Positions 1-11,498 of a stretch of 11,498 bases of DNA are shown here, in pieces. Within the stretch, counting starts at the first letter, position 1, and every line of letters begins with the position of its first letter. Source of the DNA: Deltaproteobacteria bacterium (GTDB taxonomy: Bacteria; Myxococcota; Myxococcia; Myxococcales; 40CM-4-68-19); the NCBI GenBank assembly GCA_005879095.1, contig VBLM01000153.1, positions 1 to 11,498 of the forward strand, in the 5' to 3' direction. Under the pieces are notes generated by a model, which saw only the letters and a program-made list of their open reading frames with translations, did no database searches and was not told the DNA's origin. The position numbers and the translations under genes are program-made.

Positions 1-1890
1 GCAGGCATCGCCGAGGTGCAACTCGAGCGGACGCAAGAGGTCCCGGCAGTGCCGGATTGTCTCCGGAGAGCGGCCGAAGGCGCAGAGGTACGCGCGCACG
101 AACGGGCCCAGGAGCCACGGCCAGACCGTGCCCTGATGATAGCCCCCGTCGCGCTCGGCGGGCCCGCCACCGTAGTGCGGGACGTACCCGCGTTCCTCGG
201 GCCCCAGGGTTCGCAGGCCGAACGGCGTGAGCAGTTTCTCCTCGACGACGCGCACCACCGACTCGCGCTGTTCGGGGGAGAGAAGCGGGAAGGGCAGCGA
301 CAGCGCAAAGAGCTGGTTCGGCCGCAAGGTCGGATCGCCGACGACATCGTCGAGGTGCCCACGGTCCTGGTTCCAGAAGCTCTTCTCGAAGGAGGACTTG
401 ACGAGATCCGCTTCCGTGGCGAACTGCTTGGCGGCCGGCGCGTCGCCCAGCGCCCCGCCCCACATCGCCATCAACCGGAGCGCGTTGTACCAGAGCGCGT
501 TGATCTCGACCGGCTTGCCATGGCGCGGGGTGATCACCTTGTCGCCAACCCGCGCGTCCATCCAGGTCAGTTGCACGCCAGGCGCGCCGGCGGAAAGCAG
601 GTGGTCTGCCGGATCGACGTGGATCCCGTGGTGCGTTCCCTCGCGATGCCAGCGAACGATCTCCTTCGCCGCGGGATAGAACTCCCCCCGGAGGAAGCGG
701 ACGTCGCCGCTCGTCTTCACGTACGCGTGGACTGCCTGGAACATCCACAGCGTGGCGTCCACCGTGTTGTACTCGGGCTTGTCGCCGGGCCGGTCGGGGA
801 ACGCGTTGGGGATCAGGCCCCGATCGACGTGCGCGAGAAAGCCGCGCAGCACCTCGCGAGCCTCCGGCAGCCTGTTGCGGGCGATCAGCAGGCCGGGCAG
901 GGAGATCATGGTGTCGCGGCCCCAGTCGGTGAACCAGGGATAGCCGGCGATGATGGTTGGCTCGTTGACGGCCCGGCGCACGACGAACTGGTCGGCCGCG
1001 AGCTCGAGGCGGGCCAGGAAGGGATCTTCGCTGCGCGTGCGGCGCTGCTCGCGCGCGGCGGCCGCAAGCTGGGCCACCTCCTCTGCATCGAAGGGGCGCG
1101 CGCCCAGCGTCGCCGCGATGAACACCGGCTTGTCCTGGTCCAGCTCGAAGCTGAGCGTGCCGAGCTTCCACAGGTCCTCACGAAAATCGAGGCCGCGGTC
1201 GAGTTCGGCGAGGTACTCGGTGTCGTGATACCAGCAACCGTCCCTCGTCACCTGCGCGCCGGCGCTCATGTGAAGCGACATCTCGGGCAGCCCGCGGTAC
1301 GGACGGGTTCGCAAGATCACCGCGCCTGAAGAGCGCTCCATGCGCACGTTCCCGTCCAGAGCGGGATTTGCATGGCTCAGCGAGTGATAGTCGCGGAACG
1401 CCAGAAACGGAGCGACCGAAATTCGTCGAGGCCGCGTCGAGCGATAAGTGATCACCACCGTCTGCTCGCCCGGTACGAGGAAGAGCTGCTTCTCCACGTG
1501 GGCGCCGCCGACGTCGTAGACCCAGGTCGGAAACGGATCGAGCCGGAACTCGACCAGGTGAGCATGTCCCTGCGGCGAGAGCGTGCCGGGATACTGGTTG
1601 GTGGCGAGCGGCACCTCGGGAACGCCGTCGCCGGAGATCACTTCGTCGAGGCGCGAGAGCAGCACATGACGGTCCACCGGCGGCCGCAGCGACGCCACCA
1701 GAAGACCGTGGTAGCGGCGGGTGTTGGTGCCGGCGACGGTGCCCATGGCGAAGCCGCCCACGCCGTTGGTTTCCAGCCACTCCAGCCGCGACGAGCGGGC
1801 GTGGTCCTGGCACACCTTTCGCCCCACGCTGAGCGGCGGCAGGGGGCGCGTGTGGGGGGATGGGAACACTGCGTCGGGCTGGACTCGCAT
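1..1890 (-). CDS. Glycogen debranching enzyme / amylo-alpha-1,6-glucosidase (3' end outside window)
   Basis: Seen: the frame is open from an ATG at 1890 to the left edge, giving 630 residues without a stop. It carries hallmark segments of bacterial glycogen-debranching enzymes: GYPWFTDWGRDTMISLPG (316-333), EYNTVDATLWMFQ (373-385), TWMDARVGDKV (442-452), VEINALWYNAL (461-471) and YHQGTVWPWLLGPF (584-597). Residues 1-290 form the beta-rich N-terminal domain (NGVGGFAMGTVAGTNTRRYHG, quoted here as its NGVGGFAMG start, 42-50) and the rest is the (alpha/alpha)6 barrel. Known: the family hydrolyses alpha-1,6 branch points of glycogen-like glucans in the cytosol; members are usually a little longer than 630 residues, so only a short C-terminus is missing. 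Start choice: the ATG at 1890 has GGAG seven bases upstream, whereas the in-frame ATG at 1896 forms an ATGA overlap with the stop of the upstream glucosidase but sits almost on the Shine-Dalgarno. No signal peptide is seen. Confidence 0.93.
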   Translation of the reverse strand, partial: MRVQPDAVFPSPHTRPLPPLSVGRKVCQDHARSSRLEWLETNGVGGFAMGTVAGTNTRRYHGLLVASLRPPVDRHVLLSRLDEVISGDGVPEVPLATNQYPGTLSPQGHAHLVEFRLDPFPTWVYDVGGAHVEKQLFLVPGEQTVVITYRSTRPRRISVAPFLAFRDYHSLSHANPALDGNVRMERSSGAVILRTRPYRGLPEMSLHMSAGAQVTRDGCWYHDTEYLAELDRGLDFREDLWKLGTLSFELDQDKPVFIAATLGARPFDAEEVAQLAAAAREQRRTRSEDPFLARLELAADQFVVRRAVNEPTIIAGYPWFTDWGRDTMISLPGLLIARNRLPEAREVLRGFLAHVDRGLIPNAFPDRPGDKPEYNTVDATLWMFQAVHAYVKTSGDVRFLRGEFYPAAKEIVRWHREGTHHGIHVDPADHLLSAGAPGVQLTWMDARVGDKVITPRHGKPVEINALWYNALRLMAMWGGALGDAPAAKQFATEADLVKSSFEKSFWNQDRGHLDDVVGDPTLRPNQLFALSLPFPLLSPEQRESVVRVVEEKLLTPFGLRTLGPEERGYVPHYGGGPAERDGGYHQGTVWPWLLGPFVRAYLCAFGRSPETIRHCRDLLRPLELHLGDAC

Positions 1891-1892
1891 CG

Positions 1893-4478
<2,586 letters not shown>

Positions 4479-4512
4479 GGTTCCTTTCAGGTACGTCGAG
4501 GCGGGCGAATCG

Positions 4513-5529
4513 TTACTCGGATGCGAGCTGCAAGACGTGTCCGTCGGGATCGCGCGCGAGAAAGGCGCGCGAATAGCCCAGCCGCGTGTCGGAAAGCGAA
4601 ACCGACGCCGCTCGCAGCACGCGCGCGGCCGAGCCCAGGTCGGAGGTGAACAGTGTCGTCTGCCAGTGGATCAGATCGTTGGCGCGTTCGTCGGCCGGCA
4701 TGGGTCGCCCGTCGCGCGGCGCCAGGTACTCGAGCAGCTCCACGCCGGGCCCGGTGGCCCCGCGGAGCGTGGTGATGCGCAGCCGCGCGCCGAAGACGTT
4801 AGTCAGGTGCTCCTGTTCCGTGCCCCAGTTCTCGCTGGTTCTGGCGACATGAAGCCCCAGCATGTCACGATAGAACGCCAGGCTGACATCGGTGTCGCCC
4901 ACCACGATGGCGGTGTGGTCGACGCCGAGGAAGAGCCTGTCCGCCGACTGCCAGCGCGCGTCGCCCTTGCCGCGCGGAAACTGCAGCACCTCGAGGACGT
5001 GACGGTCGGGATCGCGGAAGTAGAAGGCGCGGATCCCGCCCGCGTTCGGGTTCCAGTCAGGCAGGCGCTGCGGGCCTGTCGACGCATGCTCGACGCGCGC
5101 CACCCGGAGCGCGGCATAGGCCCGGTCCATGTCGGAAACGACGATGGCGACGTGCTGGAACGAACGATCGTTGCTGCGCGCGTCGGGCGGAGCGGGGCGG
5201 CCGCGCGGAGCCAGGTACTCGGTGAGGTCGAGACACTCGCGCCCGAGCCGGACGCGGACTGTCCGCGTGCGCGCGCCGAAGACGCCCTCCAGCTGCTCGA
5301 TTGGCTCACCGGCCTGTTCGACCTCCGCTGTCTTTTCGAAGGAAAGCACGCGTGTGTAGAAATCCGCCGAGCGGTCCGCGTCCGAGACGGTGAGACCGAC
5401 GCACCCGACCGCGCGGATCAGAGGCAGCGGCTCCGCGTGCGCGGTGGAAATGCAGCTGCGCGTTCCGCCCGCGATCAGGGACGTGAGCGCGAGGAGGAAT
5501 GCCCAGCCGGTTCGGGGGAGAATGTTCAT
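4513..5529 (-). CDS. Exported protein with two VOC (glyoxalase/bleomycin-resistance) domains
   Basis: Seen: from the ATG at 5529 the protein has 338 residues; an in-frame GTG at 5544 would add five (MRLLS). Neither start has a clear Shine-Dalgarno; ATG is chosen as the stronger codon. The N-terminus is a Sec-type signal peptide with likely cleavage after STAHA. Two tandem glyoxalase-fold repeats follow (numbering from GTG 5544): 41-190 ([32 protein letters not shown]) and 205-343 ([31 protein letters not shown]). At the usual VOC metal-ligand positions domain 1 shows C48, E109, H131, E185 and domain 2 shows H210, E272, H293, Q339. Known: VOC proteins are metal-dependent lyases, isomerases, dioxygenases or binding proteins; the reaction cannot be assigned. 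The gene lies 34 bp before the GH63 gene and may be co-transcribed with it. Confidence 0.85.
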
Positions 5530-5544
5530 GCTCAGGAGTCGCAC

Positions 5545-5657
5545 GCGCGCGCGGATTCGTTACGCAGGACAGACCATTCCGGGAGGCCCTCGAAGAGAAG
5601 CGCGCGTGGCAAGCCCAGTGGCTCGCCCGCGCGCGCGATCTCTGCGAGTGCTGAAAG
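5545..5657. other. Spacer between lipoprotein and VOC genes
   Basis: This 113-bp gap should hold a promoter or terminator, but I see neither clearly. It contains one CGTTACG heptamer (5558-5564). On the + strand a 25-codon open run ends at TGA 5652-5654 with normal-looking amino-acid usage (FREALEEKRAWQAQWL) but no start codon, perhaps a gene remnant or chance. Confidence 0.35.
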
Positions 5658-6053
5658 CTACGGGACCACCGCGACGTAGGGATCCACGCGCGTCAGCGTG
5701 AACTGGCCCGAAGCCGTCCCGGAGGCGGTGTCCGTCACCGATCCGGCGATTGTGCGGCCGCTGACGTGCCCGTCGAAGCTGAGCGTCTTCAGCTGGAACC
5801 GCACCGCGTCGCCGTTCACGTCGACGCGATCAATCATGATACCGGGCTGCGATTCGAGGGACATCCAGCTCCCAGCGTAGGTGCCGTCCTGGTTGGCGAT
5901 GTCGAGCGCGAGCGGCCGCTGCCAGCCGTCGCGGTCGATCGCGCCCATCCAGTGGCCGGACACCTTCTCCTGCGCTTGCTTGCCGGACTGCGAAACGCCC
6001 GCGCATCCCGCCGCAGCGGCGAGCGCGAACGCGATCCAGGTCATCTTCTTCAT
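5658..6053 (-). CDS. Small putative lipoprotein with a beta-rich domain
   Basis: Seen: 131 residues from the ATG at 6053, preceded by GGGAG with a six-base spacer, and overlapping the stop of the MNIO fusion gene as ATGA (6050-6053). This overlap and the Shine-Dalgarno decide the start; the same frame stays open upstream to 6521, but that stretch is antisense-like sequence inside the neighbour. MKKMTWIAFALAAAAGC is a lipoprotein signal peptide with lipobox AAGC and the lipidated Cys at position 17. The mature part begins VSGHWMGAIDRDGW, then shows alternating short strands (TYAGSWMSLE, VRFQLKTLSFDG, TIAGSVTDTASG, GQFTLTRV). This resembles the small beta-sandwich or lipocalin-like domains sometimes found before hydrolases, but I do not recognise a named family. 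Inference: it is anchored in the envelope and, by coupling, made together with the MNIO protein. Function unknown. Confidence 0.82.
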   Translation of the reverse strand: MKKMTWIAFALAAAAGCAGVSQSGKQAQEKVSGHWMGAIDRDGWQRPLALDIANQDGTYAGSWMSLESQPGIMIDRVDVNGDAVRFQLKTLSFDGHVSGRTIAGSVTDTASGTASGQFTLTRVDPYVAVVP

Positions 6054-7792
6054 CGTGATCTCCCGTGACCGGAAAAGGCCGGTCGCTTCTCCTGAGTCGT
6101 CTTCGACCAGCGCGGCGTTACGCCGGTGAAGCGAATCTTCTGGATCACGCCGTCGCGCACCCACTGCGCGAACCAGGCGGAAACGCGTGCCGGGTACCTG
6201 ATCCGCTCGCAGGCTTCGCCTAGCGTTACCCCGTCGCGCAGCGCGGAGAGGGTGGCGAAAGCTGCCGGCGGGAGCCGGTCGACTCGAACTCCTTCGGGGG
6301 CACGGCGGACGATCAAGAAGGAACGCCTGCGTGCGCGCAGCACGCGGCTGCCCCGGCGCTCCGGAAGATCGCGATCGGCCCAGAGACGATCGACGGGCCA
6401 CCTGGTCCGGAGCAGCGCAACCGATGAGTCCAGATCCGCGCGCGCGTCCGCCCATTCTCCCGTCGCGCCGATTCCTGCAGTTTCGCGCGGCGGACCCAGG
6501 AGCGCCTGAAGCGCGCTCCACTCGAGCTGCGCCAGCTCGGGAAGAAAGGGCAGCATGCGCGAAAGACCATGCCGCGAGAGGAAGCCAGGGAGCTGCTCGC
6601 CGAGCGCCGCGAGCGTGGGCTCATGTGACGACTGCTCGACGAGATATTCCGCCACCAGCCGATGAAACGCGTGCTCGCCCACCGCCCTGCGCACCGCGCG
6701 AAAGTCGCTGGCAAGAGAATCGCGGATGCGGAGGAAGTACGCGTTCGCGTAGATGCCGAGCCGATCCTCGCCGCCGACCACCCGGCCGAACAGGCGCGGC
6801 TTCGGCTCTTGCGCGCGGCGCGGACCCGATCCGTTGTCGAGCGCACCGCGGACGCCGCGAGGATCCGTCAGCATCCAGCGCATCCAGCGCTGCAGCCTGG
6901 CCAGCGGGGGTCCGCCGACCTCGATCGCAGCCGTGGCTCGGCGCGGTTGTGCCTGAAAAGAAGGCGTGCGCTGCAGCGCCGATCGCTGCACGTCCGCGGC
7001 GACCCGGGCTTCGTGGAGCAGTTCCGCGAACGGCGGGATCTGCTCGTCCCACTCGATCATCGTCGGCACCGCGCCGAACCTGCGCACCGCTTCCGCGTAG
7101 AGCTGCAGCACGGGAGCAGAGACGGGATGGTCGTGTGTGTCGATCAGGACCGGACCATGCGTCGAGTAGCCCGCGAGGTGGATCTGCTGCACGGCCTTTC
7201 GCGGCAGACCGCGTAAAAACTCCGCCGGATCGAATCCCTGGTTCACCGCGCTCACGTAGACGTTGTTGACGTCGAGGAGCAGCCCGCAGCCGGTGCGTCG
7301 CACCAACTCGGCCAGGAATTCCCACTCGCGCATCGTGGAATGCGCGTAGGTCAGGTAGCTCGACACGTTCTCGACCAGCAGCGGCCTGCCGAGTGCGTCC
7401 TGGACCTGCGCGATTCGCGACGCCAGGTGGCGCAACGACTCTGAAGTGAAGGGCAGCGGCAAAAGGTCGTGCAGGTTCTCCGCGGCCACTCCCGTCCAGC
7501 AGAGGTGGTCGGACATCCAGAGCGGCTGCACGCGATCGGCGAGAGCGCCCAGCCGGCGCAAGTAGTCGCGATCGATCGGGTCGGCGGACCCGAGGTTCAT
7601 CGACACGCCGTGCAGCAGGATGGGGTAGTGCGCGCGGACCCGCTCGAGGATCTCCAGCGGACGGCCGCCGCCGCCCTCGCGCAGCCCCATGTAGTTCTCG
7701 GAGATCACCTCGAAGAAAGGCACCGCAGGCAGGGTGGACAGCACCTCCCCGTAGTGCTGCGGGCGCAGGCCGAGCCCCACCCCCGCGATCAC
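6050..7792 (-). CDS. bufBC: DUF692 (MNIO oxidase, BufB/MbnB family) fused to DUF2063 (BufC-like), 580 aa
   Basis: Seen: GTG start at 7792 with GGGAG seven bases upstream. Residues 1-270 are a DUF692 TIM-barrel opening with GVGLGLRPQHY (4-14). Expected iron-ligand motifs are all present: LLHGVSMNLGS (H61), SDHLCW (H96), LVENVSSY (E141), LLLDVNNVYVSA (D174, N176/N177), IHLAGY (H205), DTHDHP (D218, H220) and IEWDE (E247). After an Arg/Ala/Pro-rich linker (~270-295), residues 296-580 carry a DUF2063 module (RLGIYANAYFLRIRDSLASD at 344-363). Known: MNIO enzymes use two or three irons and O2 to modify Cys residues of RiPP precursors, usually with a separate partner protein for substrate binding; DUF2063 proteins (BufC) are such partners in bufferin clusters. 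Inference: this single chain both binds and oxidises the Cys-rich peptide encoded at 10187-10480. It overlaps the broken SMP-30 gene (GTGA) and the lipoprotein gene (ATGA). Confidence 0.92.
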   Translation of the reverse strand: MIAGVGLGLRPQHYGEVLSTLPAVPFFEVISENYMGLREGGGGRPLEILERVRAHYPILLHGVSMNLGSADPIDRDYLRRLGALADRVQPLWMSDHLCWTGVAAENLHDLLPLPFTSESLRHLASRIAQVQDALGRPLLVENVSSYLTYAHSTMREWEFLAELVRRTGCGLLLDVNNVYVSAVNQGFDPAEFLRGLPRKAVQQIHLAGYSTHGPVLIDTHDHPVSAPVLQLYAEAVRRFGAVPTMIEWDEQIPPFAELLHEARVAADVQRSALQRTPSFQAQPRRATAAIEVGGPPLARLQRWMRWMLTDPRGVRGALDNGSGPRRAQEPKPRLFGRVVGGEDRLGIYANAYFLRIRDSLASDFRAVRRAVGEHAFHRLVAEYLVEQSSHEPTLAALGEQLPGFLSRHGLSRMLPFLPELAQLEWSALQALLGPPRETAGIGATGEWADARADLDSSVALLRTRWPVDRLWADRDLPERRGSRVLRARRRSFLIVRRAPEGVRVDRLPPAAFATLSALRDGVTLGEACERIRYPARVSAWFAQWVRDGVIQKIRFTGVTPRWSKTTQEKRPAFSGHGRSR

Positions 7793-8373
7793 GGGGCCGC
7801 TCCCGCGACTCGAACGGGCCCGCCCGGGCGGATCCCGGGAACGGAGAGGCGAATGCGATAGAGCGCCGTTCGCCCCACGCCATGTTCGCGGCGAGCTGCT
7901 CCGGAACGATGGTCCCGAGATGCTTGCCCTCGGGTGAAAGGATCCACAAGCCGCCGGGTCCGGAGACGTACAGGGTGCCGCGCTGATCCACTTTCATGCC
8001 GTCCAGCGCTTCCTCGCCGGGCGCGGAGGTCATGTCGAAGAAGACGCGGCCACCGGAGAGCGTGCAGTCCGGCGCGACGTCGTAGCGCATGACTACCTTG
8101 CGCTGCGGGTCCCAGTTGGTGACGTAAAGGAGCTTCTCGTCGGGCGAGAAAGCGATTCCGTTGGGTCCGATCAGCTCGGTTGCGGCCAGCTTCACCTCGC
8201 CGTCCTTGACGCAGAAGACGCCGCTGAACGGCAGCTCCTTGCGCGGATCGTCGTAGACGCGCGGCAGCCCGAACGGTGGGTCGGTGAAGTAGAGCGCGCC
8301 GTCCGAGCGGTAGACGAGGTCGTTGGGGCTGTTGAGGCGCTTGCCCTGGTAGCGATCGGCGAGCACCGTGAGC
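7789..8373 (-). pseudogene. 3' part of a broken SMP-30/gluconolactonase-like gene
   Basis: Seen: after a frame change near 8374 the SMP-30 beta-propeller continues with LTVLADRYQGKRLNSPNDLV, YFTDPPFGLPRVYDDPRKEL, YVTNWDPQRKVVMRYDV, DGMKVDQRGTLYVSGPGGLW and ends the frame's homology at ANMAWGE near 7872. A second frame change there leads into LYRIRLSVPGIRP and a stop TGA at 7789-7791. Known: relatives carry about twenty residues between the NGLTL and LTVLADRY segments, and about ten between AWG and LYRIRL; both stretches are missing here. Each loss is therefore a short deletion that also changes the frame. The stop overlaps the GTG of the MNIO fusion gene, which shows that an intact ancestor was translationally coupled to it. 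The lengths of the missing stretches come from memory of the family, not from an alignment. Confidence 0.8.
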
Positions 8374-9294
8374 CGTCGGGGCTCAGGGTCAGGCCGTTGG
8401 AGCCGGGCTGGTGGTACTCACCGATGTTCGCGCCTTTGTAGCCGCTCTTGGTGCGATACACGGACACCTGACCGTCCGACGTCCAGCGATAGATGCGGTT
8501 CGCGTTGGGATCGCTGAAGAGCAGGTATCCATCGGGATGCCACACCGGGCCTTCGAGGAACTCGAATCCATCGGCCAGCTTCTCGATGCGGGCGTCCGCC
8601 GGGAGCAGCGCGTCGACCGCGGGATCGAGGCGGACGATCGACCCGAAGCTGCGAGTGTCGGCCGACGGCCGGTGCAACTCGAGCGTGGCCGAGCGGATCC
8701 AGAGGAAATTGTCCGGGCCTACGGAGAGCGGTCCGTTGGCGGCAAAGACGGCGATGTGGAATTGCTGTCCCGGCCTCGCGTCGCGGGTTAGGACGACCCG
8801 ATTGGGTGCGTTGAAGCCACGGACTACCGCGCCGCCACTCTGGCCGAGCGTCGGAGAGAGCTTTCCGTCGACCCACACCTCGGCGTAGTCGTCGACCACC
8901 ACTTCGAACACCAGCGTGCCGCCCTTCACCTCGGTGGTTCCGATGCGCTCCGGGAGGGCGAGGGCGAGGCGGTACCATCCGAAGCAGACCTTGCCGTTGC
9001 CCCGTCGCTGCTCGAGGCCGGTCGCGGGGACTGCCTCCCACGCCGAGTCGTCCGCATCGGCGCGCGGAGCAAACTGCAGCGAGCGCACCGGCTTGCCGGA
9101 AGCGCGCAGGTCGGGGCCGGCCGCGCGCGCATCCACTGCAATCAAGGAAGCGTCCTCCAGGCGCCGGACACCGATGCGAGCGCGGCCGGATCGGCGAGAT
9201 CGACGATGGCTGCCGGCAGGCGGTAAGCGTCGTCGTACGGCGCCGGGGCGATCGGCGCCGCGAAAAGCATCGCGAGCAGCGTGAGCGCGCCCAT
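8192..9294 (-). pseudogene. 5' part of a broken SMP-30/gluconolactonase-like gene, with signal peptide
   Basis: Seen: an ATG at 9294 overlaps the cupin stop as TGATG, with AAGG upstream, and encodes a signal peptide (MGALTLLAMLFAAPIAPA) then VDLADPAAL. This frame stops at 9142-9144 after 50 codons. The homologous sequence continues in another frame from about 9155 (DASLIAVDARAAGPDLRASG), so 1, 4 or 7 bases are missing at 9151-9159. That second frame encodes a galactose-binding-like domain (NGKVCFGWYRLALALPERIG, DDYAEVWVDGKL) and the start of the propeller (GFEFLEGPVWHPDGYLLFSD, GEYHQPGSNGLTLSPDG). It loses homology near 8374 and runs out of phase to 8192. Known: SMP-30/gluconolactonase/LRE proteins are calcium-dependent lactonases; this version is of the secreted type. 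As written it cannot make a full protein, so it is either a pseudogene or contains assembly errors. Confidence 0.8.
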
Positions 9295-9641
9295 CACCGC
9301 ACCTTGACGACGTAGTAGTCGAACGGCGCCGAAGCCTGCTGGAACCAGTGGGGCACGCCACTCGGCACCACCATCACGTCGCCTTCGGCGAGATGGCGCA
9401 CGTCACCGCCTTGAAGGCCCGTGCCGCGGATTTCGTCGGGCTCGGTGCTCTGGCCGTCGATCACGGTCCCGCCGGTCACCAGCGTCGCCTTGCCATGCAG
9501 CACGTGAATGATGTCCGTGTCGCGCAGGTGCACCTCGGCCTTGCCGGCGCCGTCGCGGTGGCTGGCGTGCACCTTGTAGTTCGCAACCTCGACCAGCGGC
9601 CGGCCCTTGACGAAGGCTTCCGCGACTTCCGCGCCCCGCAA
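9294..9641 (-). pseudogene. Cupin half of a frameshifted GlcG-cupin gene
   Basis: Seen: the frame encodes a complete small cupin domain: VEVANYKVHASHRDG, then HLRDTDIIHVLHGKATLVTG, LAEGDVMVVPSGVPHWF and YYVVKVR before TGA at 9294-9296. The domain keeps the cupin pattern of an acidic/His first motif and a G-(D)-x6-P-x-G-x-P-H second motif. In this frame the only start near the domain is a TTG at 9641 with no convincing ribosome-binding site; upstream codons continue the reading (ASITY) until the break near 9655. Inference: the domain was originally translated as the C-terminal part of the GlcG-like gene, and the break has cut it off. Known: cupins of this sort bind metals and small ligands; the substrate is unknown. 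An alternative is a separate cupin gene with a weak TTG start. Confidence 0.72.
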
Positions 9642-10093
9642 GTAGGTGATGGACGCTCCTCGTCCTGCTGCGCGCTGTTCGCGCCGCTGACACCGATCGC
9701 GCCAACGATCTGGCCGTCGATGACGATCGGCACGCCGCCGATCAGCGGCGTGAAATCGTCGAGTGCGGCCATCGCGGTTCGACTCTTGTTGATCAGCTCC
9801 TCGAAGAAACGGGTCGGTTTCTTGAACAGTGCCGCGGTGCGCGCCTTGCCGATCGAGATCCGGGCGCCGGCGGCGAACGTGCCTTCGAGTCGCTCGAGCG
9901 CGATCAGGTTTCCGCCGTCATCGACCACGGCGATGATGCCGCCGGCCTTGTCGCGCCGGGCCTCCGCTTCCGCGGCGGCGATGGCGCGGCGGGCGCCTTC
10001 CAGCGTAAGGACCTTCTTCTCCACTACCTGCGCGCGCGCAGGTCCGACTACCACCGCGGCGAGCGCGGCGGCGACGAGCATTGCCCGGATCAT
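9476..10093 (-). pseudogene. GlcG/HbpS-like (heme-binding family) half of a frameshifted GlcG-cupin gene
   Basis: Seen: ATG at 10093 behind AAAGGTG. A signal peptide (MIRAMLVAAALAAVVVGPARA) is followed by a GlcG/HbpS domain: VLTLEGARRAIAAAEAEA, GIIAVVDDGGNLIALERLEG, ISIGKARTAALF, GGVPIVIDGQIVGAIGVSGA. Homology runs to SAQQDEE near 9657. From there the frame continues out of phase to a stop at 9476, giving an unrelated Arg/Ser-rich tail. The stretch usually following AQQDEE in this family (roughly a dozen residues, often Ala-rich) is missing, and the cupin domain follows in another frame. This indicates a short deletion of a length not divisible by three. Known: HbpS/GlcG-type proteins bind heme or cobalamin or are sensors; role here unknown. 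The first ~145 residues could still be made with a wrong tail. Confidence 0.78.
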
Positions 10094-10106
10094 CGGAGCA
10101 CCTTTC

Positions 10107-10123
10107 GCGCGCCGATGGCGCGC
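10107..10123 (-). other. Hairpin directly upstream of the GlcG ribosome-binding site
   Basis: Perfect seven-base arms (GCGCGCC 10107-10113, GGCGCGC 10117-10123) with a three-base loop. On the leftward mRNA it ends one base before the AAAGG of the GlcG-like gene, so it could limit translation or stabilise a processed 5' end downstream of the precursor gene. Confidence 0.45.
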
Positions 10124-10140
10124 AGCAAGAGAAGACAGCA

Positions 10141-10177
10141 CGCGGCGCCGCGGCCGGGGGAGAGCCGCGACGCCGCG
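10141..10177 (-). terminator. Strong GC hairpin just after the precursor stop (attenuator or weak terminator)
   Basis: Seven base pairs (CGCGGCG 10141-10147 with CGCCGCG 10171-10177), a 2x2 internal loop, then five pairs (10150-10154 with 10164-10168) around a nine-base loop. It begins ten bases past the precursor stop codon. On the leftward transcript it is followed by a pyrimidine-rich stretch (TGTCTTCTCTTG) rather than a clean T-run, so partial termination or 3'-end protection of the precursor mRNA is more likely than full termination. Confidence 0.55.
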
Positions 10178-10186
10178 CTCGAGCCA

Positions 10187-10480
10187 CTACGACTTCTTGA
10201 TCGGCGTGAGAGAACCGCCCTTGATCGCCAGGCACGAATCCTTCGGGACAGGGAGCCAGCCCTGGCCGCTGCAGGAGTTCTGCGATGCGCAGCCGTTGCC
10301 TTCGCCGCTGCACTGCCCATGCTGCGCGCAGGAGTTGATGCCGTAGCAGGGAACCACGGTCATCTTCTTCAGCTTGGAGGCGGGGATCGGTTCGGCGGCC
10401 TTCGCTTGCAGCGCGATGCCGCCGAGGATTCCCGCCACTGCGGCGCCCAGCAACGCACGCCGTCTTCCGGTGTTCTTCAT
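10187..10480 (-). CDS. bufA: Bufferin-type (BufA2-like) Cys-rich RiPP precursor with Tat-like signal peptide
   Basis: Seen: 97 residues, ATG at 10480 behind a strong AAAGGAGA with a five-base spacer. The N-terminus has a Tat-like motif (RRRALL, 6-11), a hydrophobic stretch and likely cleavage after QAKA (28). The mature peptide has six Cys at 45, 51, 57, 64, 70 and 83 in CYGINSCAQHGQC, NGCASQNSCSGQGW and KDSCLAIKGGSL. Known: this CYGxNxC ... CxGQG pattern is that of bufferin precursors (BufA2 type); bufferins are MNIO-modified peptides that sequester copper, and in the DUF2282 type the modified site is an EGKCG motif. Here the nearest string is EGNGC (60-64), so the modified residues may differ. 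Neighbours: DoxX upstream, and the MNIO-DUF2063 fusion 2.4 kb downstream on the same strand. Family assignment is from recalled motifs and context. Confidence 0.84.
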   Translation of the reverse strand: MKNTGRRRALLGAAVAGILGGIALQAKAAEPIPASKLKKMTVVPCYGINSCAQHGQCSGEGNGCASQNSCSGQGWLPVPKDSCLAIKGGSLTPIKKS

Positions 10481-10513
10481 TTCATTCTCCTTTGTGGTTG
10501 GTGAAAGCTTGCT

Positions 10514-10528
10514 TCGACAAAGTGTCGA
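10514..10528. repeat. Short palindrome TCGACA-AAG-TGTCGA in the DoxX-bufA spacer
   Basis: Perfect six-base arms around a three-base loop, about 35 bp upstream of the precursor ATG. It has no T-run on the leftward side, so an intrinsic terminator is unlikely; an operator or an mRNA hairpin in the leader of the precursor gene is possible. Confidence 0.4.
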
Positions 10529-10548
10529 GTGGCTGGCGATCCGTTACG

Positions 10549-11034
10549 TCAGACGACTGCAATGCGCGCGGTGGATTCCGATCCGCCCGAGCGGCGCAGA
10601 AAGAACTGCACGAACCGATCGAGCGAGAGCGGTCCCGGGCCCGCAACGGCGATCCAGGAGGCCAGCACGATGTACGTCCACTCCTCGAACCCGAGCAGAT
10701 CGGGAAGGCCGTGCAGGTCGCCGCGCTTGGCGGTGAGAATCGCCACGATCATGGTGACGATCAGCGGGATCGACGCGAGCCGGCTGAGCAAGCCAACCAG
10801 CAGAAGCGATCCGCAGGTGAGCTCGGCGCTGGACGCGAGCAAGGCATTGAAGCCGGGCGCCGGAATACCCAGCTCGGTGAAGAAGCCGGTCACCTTGTCC
10901 AGGTCATGCAGCTTGCCCCAGCCGGTGCCGATGAAGACGACGCCGAGCGTGAGTCGCGCCAGGGTGGGGCCGATCCACGACAGGCGCCCGGCGGTGGAAA
11001 GGAATGCAGCTTCTGCGCGCGAAAGAAGGTCCAT
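10549..11034 (-). CDS. DoxX-family membrane protein
   Basis: Seen: 161 residues from the ATG at 11034, with GGAG six bases upstream. An open frame extends to 11217, but the extra part has no signal and overlaps the divergent gene, so the short form is chosen. Four hydrophobic segments are visible at about 22-39, 63-83, 86-103 and 118-134. The DoxX signature VVFIGTGWGKLHDLDKVTGF (32-51) lies at the first helix, followed by FTELGIPAP, and FEEWTYIVLASW opens the last helix. A single Cys (C74) sits in the second helix. Known: DoxX proteins are small four-helix inner-membrane proteins of poorly defined, redox-linked function, and one is a regular member of bufferin clusters beside BufA, BufB and BufC. 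Inference: it heads the leftward operon and serves the peptide encoded 68 bp downstream. Confidence 0.9.
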   Translation of the reverse strand: MDLLSRAEAAFLSTAGRLSWIGPTLARLTLGVVFIGTGWGKLHDLDKVTGFFTELGIPAPGFNALLASSAELTCGSLLLVGLLSRLASIPLIVTMIVAILTAKRGDLHGLPDLLGFEEWTYIVLASWIAVAGPGPLSLDRFVQFFLRRSGGSESTARIAVV

Positions 11035-11143
11035 GGTTTGCTCCGTTTCGAAGGTGAAAAGACGTCCTCCGGTGAAGGCGCGCGTTACAGCCGCGTAACG
11101 GAGAGGCAGCTGGAACGTACCCAGGATGCAAAGGAGCATCCGA
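11035..11143. promoter_or_regulatory. Divergent promoter region between DoxX and SDR genes
   Basis: This 109-bp gap separates two diverging starts and must hold promoters for both. It contains a perfect inverted repeat (11083-11100). Reading rightward, GTAAC (11095-11099) is followed after 16 bases by CGTA (11116-11119), a spacing like ECF-sigma promoters; this is a suggestion only. No convincing sigma-70 pair was found on either strand. Confidence 0.5.
11083..11100. promoter_or_regulatory. Perfect inverted repeat CGTTAC-N6-GTAACG, possible operator
   Basis: Two exact six-base arms (11083-11088 and 11095-11100) flank a six-base spacer, about 50 bp from each of the divergent starts. The geometry suits a dimeric repressor or activator acting on both genes. 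One arm is part of the CGTAACG motif that recurs in other spacers of the window. Confidence 0.5.
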
Positions 11144-11498
11144 ATGACCTCGACCCGAGCGCTGCAAGGCCAGATTGCCCTCGTCACCGGCGCGAACTCC
11201 GGCATCGGCCGCGGCATCGCGCTCGCGCTGGGAGCTGCCGGCGCGGACGTGGTCGTGAACTACCGCGACGGCGAGGACGCCGCCATGGAAGTGGTCCGGC
11301 AGATCGCGCAGTCGGGCAGCCGCGCACTCGCGCACCGCGCCGACGTCTCGCGCGAGCCGGAGGTAAAGGAGCTGTTCCAGCGCTCCGTGGAGCACTTCGG
11401 CACCGTGGACATCCTGGTCAACAACGCCGGCCTTCAGCGAGACGCCGCGTTCGAAAACCTCTCGCTCGAGCAATGGAACACCGTCATCGGCGTGAATC
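11144..11498 (+). CDS. SDR-family dehydrogenase, N-terminal part (runs off right edge)
   Basis: Seen: ATG at 11144 with AAGGAG and a seven-base spacer; 118 codons to the edge, no stop. The Rossmann fold is classical-SDR: cofactor motif TGANSGIG (15-22), VVVNYR (36-41) where Y40-R41 favours NADP(H), D67 after HRA, and NNAG (93-96). The window ends on N118, the usual position of the catalytic Asn, so Ser, Tyr and Lys of the active site lie outside. Known: sequences of this type are often annotated as glucose 1-dehydrogenase or 3-oxoacyl-ACP reductase-like; the substrate cannot be told from this part. It is divergent from the DoxX/bufferin operon and is the only rightward gene. Confidence 0.92.
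   Translation, partial: MTSTRALQGQIALVTGANSGIGRGIALALGAAGADVVVNYRDGEDAAMEVVRQIAQSGSRALAHRADVSREPEVKELFQRSVEHFGTVDILVNNAGLQRDAAFENLSLEQWNTVIGVN

Follow-up and report, generated by a model that had tools for sequence, protein, structure and literature searches.

On the minus strand of an 11,498-nucleotide stretch of myxococcal DNA (contig VBLM01000153.1, positions 1 to 11,498; hereafter the window), positions 11034-5658 encode, in this order, a DoxX protein, a six-Cys precursor peptide, a GlcG-cupin protein, an SMP-30 protein, an MNIO (DUF692) enzyme fused to a DUF2063 partner, and a small lipoprotein-like open reading frame (ORF). A sequence-only reading of the same DNA had recognised a bufferin locus, and had proposed that the two genes lying between precursor and enzyme either were once part of the pathway or interrupted the operon. 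We consider it rather likely that the locus is an expanded bufferin-2 (Buf2) operon under extracytoplasmic function (ECF) sigma control, made up of two separable envelope-stress modules, and that it is not an interrupted one. Interruption is disfavoured because the same order with open frames is found in a second genus of the family (genome G011), because ORFs overlap, and because an ECF-type motif precedes the unit. The modules are separable, since the GlcG-cupin/SMP-30 pair also stands without bufferin genes beside it in G005, from the same genus as the window, and in the further relative G131, and since not one GlcG-cupin is seen in 80 GTDB loci that surround the closest relatives of the enzyme (flanks up to 10 kb, often shorter). 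The first of the two proposals is half supported, in that the pair looks like part of the operon, whereas a part in the pathway is unproven.

Except for Tat export and a DUF2063 gene of its own, the parts listed in that reading were confirmed, all on the minus strand. DoxX (10549-11034) scores 78.8 bits against PF07681 (cut-off 23.6). The precursor (10187-10480, 97 amino acids) carries Cys at positions 45, 51, 57, 64, 70 and 83, which gives the Buf2 spacing C-x5-C-x5-C-x6-C-x5-C-x12-C, and all six are invariant when it is aligned with five other precursors from related loci. Its sole NCBIfam match is BufA2, at 53.9 bits and below the cut-off of 60, which the 66% identical G011 orthologue passes with 64.4 bits; together with the enzyme's score against MNIO_BufB (see below), this upholds the assignment to the bufferin type. 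The N-terminus of the precursor resembles a signal peptide by eye. Export by the Tat route, which had been suggested, was set aside as unsupported, since the G011 orthologue begins MQTKKK and has no twin arginine. The GlcG/HbpS-like-cupin protein (9294-10093) matches PF03928 at 107.7 bits (cut-off 25) and Cupin_2 at 28.4 bits (cut-off 27.2). In the SMP-30/gluconolactonase-like protein (7789-9294) the C-terminal piece matches PF08450 at 85.8 bits (cut-off 26.3) and the longer N-terminal piece reaches 20.1 bits, under that cut-off; both genes have broken frames in the window. The last ORF (5658-6053, minus strand, 131 amino acids), classed as lipoprotein-like by eye, has no family match, and no counterpart was found in the related loci searched.

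The DUF2063 partner had been taken for a gene of its own; it instead shares one open frame of 580 codons with the MNIO (6050-7792, minus strand, GTG start), so that the usual separate partner chain is absent. The MNIO domain (residues 4-269) scores 374.8 bits against MNIO_BufB (cut-off 310), and the DUF2063 domain (residues 301-405) 58.3 bits against PF09836 (cut-off 27.2). We take H61, H96, E141, D174, H205, D218, H220 and E247 to be candidate iron ligands; all eight are unchanged throughout an alignment of 61 fused proteins that includes the window's, and line up with those of TglH. On the question of an RRE-type domain, a match to the HvfC model covers residues 342-527, its 56.2 bits lying below the equivalog cut-off of 142. 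A structure model of residues 1-577 has a pLDDT of 88.1; in one fold search the matches span residues 1-279, leaving the DUF2063/RRE half uncovered, and in a second, which gives no ranges, the top rows are MNIO and TIM-barrel proteins. Read by eye, all of the 120 enzyme relatives among the matches listed have both domains in one chain, in a search that took proteins of 0.55-1.75 times the query length and thereby favours fusions. Outside the window, 4 of 119 MNIO places hold such a fusion (L063, L143, L177 and L178, each confirmed as the same open frame), and their scatter in the MNIO tree makes it seem that the fusion arose more than once. As a maturase in a single chain, such an enzyme would be convenient. 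No MNIO-DUF2063 fusion is described in the available passages of PMC12452194 and PMC13097082 or in the titles and abstracts listed from related literature, although other papers may do so; the former names MNIO-nitroreductase fusions.

From the stop of the precursor to the start of the enzyme we counted 2,394 bp, and the canonical arrangement, with the precursor directly upstream of the MNIO, is therefore not present. Among the 119 MNIO places, which come from the fetched loci and have common ancestry, 107 show a BufA match (tblastn, E up to 1) no more than 6 kb upstream on the same strand, and the gap is at most 500 bp in 106 of these 107 (median 114; the remaining one 1,295), in agreement with the earlier remark that a 2.4 kb same-strand split separates parts that are normally adjacent. 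In the phylum, 4 of 195 genomes have a GlcG-cupin of this type (E up to 1e-40) and 5 of 195 an SMP-30 of this type (E up to 1e-80); in all 4 genomes with GlcG-cupin, SMP-30 adjoins it. The gene order of the window is found again in G011, where contig C93 carries BufA2 (66% identity), GlcG-cupin (70%), SMP-30 (65%) and the start of an MNIO, in this order and with open frames. The contig end cuts this MNIO down to its N-terminus (59% identity over 29 residues). Contig C878 of the same genome starts inside an MNIO and continues into the DUF2063 partner fused to it; compared with the window enzyme and the listed database proteins, this partner is closest to the window enzyme and P0006. Because G011 has only one other MNIO, which is complete and lies on C597 (38-40% identical), C93 and C878 probably hold one gene. 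In addition, a jgi metagenome contig of 14,584 bp encodes a fused enzyme (P0005, 84%), and an intact GlcG-cupin that is 95% identical (P0252) comes from a contig of 14,584 bp of the same source; from the equal size and common source the two appear to lie on one contig.

The pattern GTAAC-N15-18-CG(A/T)(A/C) occurs five times in the window, as against 0.51 expected from first-order Markov shuffles. One occurrence, GTAACG-N14-CGAC at 10524-10547 (minus strand), lies upstream of bufA. The others lie upstream of a VOC gene (5538-5563, minus), of an MGH1/GH63-type glycoside hydrolase gene (4492-4516, minus, overlapping the VOC stop codon), of a divergent SDR gene (11095-11119, plus) and of the lipoprotein-like ORF (6096-6121, minus), the last being inside the 3' end of the MNIO-DUF2063 gene and possibly due to chance. 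The motif precedes bufA in G011 as well, and also the canonical bufA genes of G005 and of the window's own genome (G000, 62% complete, 791 contigs). It stands before glcG in G005 and G131, before the VOC, SDR and GH63 genes of G005 (L034:2803, L034:3374 and L034:1742), before doxX in G011 and in G131, and before an ECF sigma gene of G131. Orthologous genes thus share a promoter motif, as is expected of an ECF regulon, though the genome-wide counts are weak: hits of the strict pattern and of its reversed control number 3 and 7 in G000, 13 and 8 in G005, 8 and 4 in G011, and 6 and 3 in G131. The evidence therefore lies in the concentration of the motif on the contigs of interest. Indeed, 6 of the 13 strict hits of G005 fall on two such contigs, which make up 43.9 kb of 5.2 Mb (P 5.9e-10). 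Two further occurrences were seen, one in G011 about 500 bp upstream of the other MNIO (C597:2951-2976), which was left out when 2 of the 8 motif hits of that genome were counted, and one in G005 (L170:6320-7133), after SMP-30 and before a 249-codon ORF without a Pfam match.

As for a factor that could read this motif, the fused enzyme of G011 is adjoined by an ECF sigma gene (sigma-70 r2 and r4_2 domains), a gene for a zf-HC2 zinc-finger protein, a candidate anti-sigma factor, and a third gene; the sigma gene and the third gene are found again in G131 and, at two places, in G005.

Within the unit, start and stop codons interlock. One base is common to the cupin stop and the start of SMP-30 (TGATG), and overlapping codons also join SMP-30 to the MNIO (GTGA) and the MNIO-DUF2063 gene to the lipoprotein-like ORF (ATGA), in each case the stop of the former with the start of the latter; similar overlaps of GlcG-cupin and SMP-30 are found in G011, G005 and G131. 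Between bufA and glcG lies a 16-bp G+C hairpin with a pyrimidine-rich tail (10140-10178, minus strand, z -3.63), in a region with 4 terminator-like sites for 2.8 expected. It may act as a partial terminator or a stabiliser, and may let bufA be made in excess. The hairpin sequence is kept upstream of glcG in G005 (whole-stretch score 95, shuffled maximum 33), and a differently built hairpin is predicted in G011 (no shuffle control). A search for sigma-70 promoters gave 0 where 0.2 were expected, and is thus uninformative.

On our preferred explanation, transcription probably starts at one promoter upstream of bufA that depends on an ECF sigma factor, and a single transcript would run from bufA, by readthrough of the hairpin, over glcG-cupin, smp30 and the MNIO/DUF2063 gene to the small lipoprotein-like ORF. 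The fused enzyme would oxidise the Cys residues of BufA2 in the cytoplasm, most likely to 5-thiooxazoles, and the exported peptide would serve as a periplasmic buffer for copper or a similar metal. GlcG-cupin and SMP-30, presumably periplasmic, would constitute a second envelope module of the same regulon, which is co-expressed, may cooperate with the bufferin and would be able to exist without it.

Several observations weigh against this explanation. With regard to sigma control, no ECF sigma gene lies within the window, and the window's own genome shows only a sigma fragment at a contig edge (C692) and a 36%-identical homologue (C461). Among seven loci with sigma homologues that were scanned, the motif faces the sigma gene in one (G131); at C38 of G005 it is on the opposite strand, and there is none at C878 of G011, C81 of G005, C157 of G004, or C692 and C461 of G000. 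The window's doxX has no motif match at its own start, and across whole genomes the strict pattern hardly outnumbers its reversed control, falling below it in G000. With regard to the operon, the enzyme of G011 is split over two contigs, so that linkage rests on the 29-residue fragment, and SMP-30 and MNIO do not overlap there, being about 11 nt apart. The four-gene order was seen in one family only (the window, G011 and the inferred 14,584-bp contig). Finally, GlcG-cupin and SMP-30 are broken in the window assembly.

The history of the locus can be followed to some extent in the trees and in the related genomes. In the MNIO tree, whose inner nodes fall below the top support class and in which long-branch rows are flagged elsewhere, the window enzyme groups with P0005 (100/99) and then with P0006 and L070/L071 (91/94). 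The window's own genome holds a second, canonical BufA2-MNIO cluster on contig C162, near the contig edge (L033:1958-864), with the same ECF-type motif upstream of its bufA (L033:2030). The MNIO of C162 falls in a different group of the tree, and the idea that the window enzyme is a recent copy of it was rejected. As far as seen, this second cluster does not use the window peptide, since it has a BufA2 of its own, so that the refuting case named in the earlier reading has not come up. The nearest relatives of the precursor outside the family, among the fetched loci, are likewise L070/L071 (45-47%), where BufA adjoins the MNIO and the partner is in a separate frame. Because both precursor and enzyme have these loci as their nearest relatives outside the family, they seem to have a common history. 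The GlcG-cupin/SMP-30 pair probably came between bufA and the enzyme before the two genera split, although a transfer of the whole block is possible.

G005 may preserve a later step of this history. Upstream of its glcG lies a stretch in which, with a gap of 2 nt, 17 of the final 21 nt of bufA are matched, the stop codon among them; a score as high was reached by 1 of 20,000 random G005 23-mers and by 0 of 20,000 random window 21-mers. Next to this match is a promoter motif that, as at bufA in the window, starts with GTAACGGATCG. The kept hairpin, the apparent 3' remnant of bufA and the promoter motif together suggest a loss of this bufA in G005. We also considered, and rejected, an MNIO scar on the downstream side of SMP-30 in that genome: there is a shared 14-mer, but the alignment scores 28 against a shuffled maximum of 26, and the wider comparison 36 against 39.

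The broken frames of the pair raise the question of whether the operon is decaying, that is, whether genuine deletions have killed the GlcG/SMP-30 module and left bufA and the fused enzyme behind the hairpin. Relative to G005, the window pair lacks 46, 7, 61 (aligned as 4+57) and 34 (13+21) nt. The 46-nt deletion, near 9654, breaks the GlcG-cupin frame (intact relatives have 281 amino acids), and the other three break that of SMP-30 (535 amino acids in the intact G005 relative); all four sit within 7866-9654. We regard decay as possible, though not probable, and it is compatible with the expanded operon. It draws on the four frame-breaking deletions themselves, in a window whose other ORFs are open, and on the fact that, of the 119 other GlcG matches listed, none combines high identity with coverage of the entire deleted form (the best-covering one reaches 97%, at 51% identity). 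What tells against it are intact near-identical metagenome proteins (P0247, 100% over the GlcG part; P0151, partial, 95%) and substitutions relative to G005 that fall mostly on third codon positions (for example 10/5/47 at positions 1/2/3 in GlcG), so that any decay must be recent. No less likely is that the presence of near-identical strains led to a local error of assembly. The four deletions are thus either recent or an error of the assembly at this place.

One could also speculate that the locus represents a new bufferin subclass, with MNIO and partner in one chain and with the peptide acting together with a periplasmic, haem- or metal-binding GlcG-cupin and an SMP-30 lactonase, all from one ECF operon. 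If this were true, peptide maturation or metal transfer would continue after export, but the proposal is a doubtful one. Closely related, and unlikely as well, is the view that this bufferin has GlcG-cupin and SMP-30 as obligate partners, which would act on the exported peptide in the periplasm by tailoring it or by handling metal. The same order in two genera, the overlapping ORFs in the window and the signal-peptide-like N-termini of both proteins (by eye) would fit such partners, as would an SMP-30-type propeller naturally fused to Cu/Zn-SOD in Deinococcus, reported in PMC12362111. The distribution of the pair, however, does not. In G005 and G131 the pair has neither BufA2 nor the fused MNIO alongside. 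In G131 the order is GlcG-cupin, SMP-30, DoxX, and an MNIO lies about 18 kb off on the same contig. To the absence of GlcG-cupin from the 80 GTDB loci can be added that a single one of them has an SMP-30-like gene, some 9 kb away. Among the matches listed, moreover, identity of at least 82% is reached by 30 of 119 non-self GlcG rows and by 1 of 119 non-self enzyme rows, and this hints weakly that close relatives of GlcG often occur without this enzyme. In the window itself, bufA and the enzyme have open frames and the pair does not. No link of GlcG or SMP-30 with bufferins was found among the literature matches listed.

That unrelated genes interrupted a bufferin operon by chance in this strain, for which the adjacency of BufA and MNIO in L070/L071 and the free-standing pair elsewhere might be cited, is very improbable given the same order with open frames in a second genus, the ORF overlaps and the same motif at both modules where they are apart; such a one-off event is hard to hold, and an old insertion that was later fixed merges with the expanded, ECF-controlled operon that we prefer. 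Because relatives carry GlcG-cupin/SMP-30 alone and many others bufferin alone, the contribution of this module to a copper-buffering peptide is directly testable.

The surroundings of the operon carry the same motif. DoxX adjoins the operon and is syntenic with an SDR-DoxX-VOC neighbourhood of G005, in which no buf genes lie between DoxX and VOC; by this synteny DoxX is assigned to that neighbourhood. In the window, the VOC gene is at 4513-5529 and the MGH1/GH63-type glycoside hydrolase gene at 1893-4478. A neighbourhood of SDR, DoxX, VOC and two glycoside hydrolases recurs in partly shared form (window 1-5563 and 11095-11498; L034, L171, L175), and is perhaps one ECF regulon island.

Compared with known systems, the two proteins of the inserted module have solved sequence relatives. 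HbpS/EfgA family structures (PDB 6bws, 3fpv) are among the nearest for the intact GlcG-cupin P0247, and exported gluconolactonases (PDB 3e5z, 3dr2) for the SMP-30 relative P0124. In contrast to these, GlcG is here joined to a cupin, and SMP-30 has an additional conserved N-terminal region (residues 1-249 of P0124) without a Pfam match. The enzyme differs from TglHI, MbnBC (PDB 8hi7, 7tcr) and the DUF692 structure 3bww, in which the MNIO is a chain of its own, by forming one chain with its DUF2063 partner.

As to regulation, we take CC3254-CC3257 of Caulobacter to be a bufferin operon. Passages of PMC3511200 give GTAACC-N16-CGAA as the sigma-F sequence there, and passages of PMC6180224 describe a Sinorhizobium RpoE7 target operon that holds DUF692 and DUF2063 genes and has a similar promoter sequence. 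The loci studied here resemble both in having ECF-type promoter-like sequences of the form GTAAC...CGAA. They differ in that the motif reads GTAACG...CG(T/A)(A/C), in that the sigma gene of G011 neighbours a zf-HC2 protein and not NrsF, and in that the motif also precedes GlcG-cupin/SMP-30, VOC, SDR and glycoside hydrolase genes. With the Buf2/BufA2 clusters, as the available passages of PMC12452194 describe them, the locus has in common the six-Cys precursor, the BufB-type MNIO, the DUF2063-type partner and a DoxX nearby. It is unlike them in its two extra genes between precursor and enzyme, in the fusion of MNIO and partner, and in the ECF sigma gene and zinc-finger protein that adjoin the fused enzyme in G011. 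According to the same passages, sigma and NrsF genes belong to Buf1 clusters and are not reported for Buf2, and further conserved genes turn up in an extremely low proportion of bufferin clusters. In this family both features seem to be present, as a two-gene envelope module inside a Buf2 operon and as an ECF-type motif common to its members.

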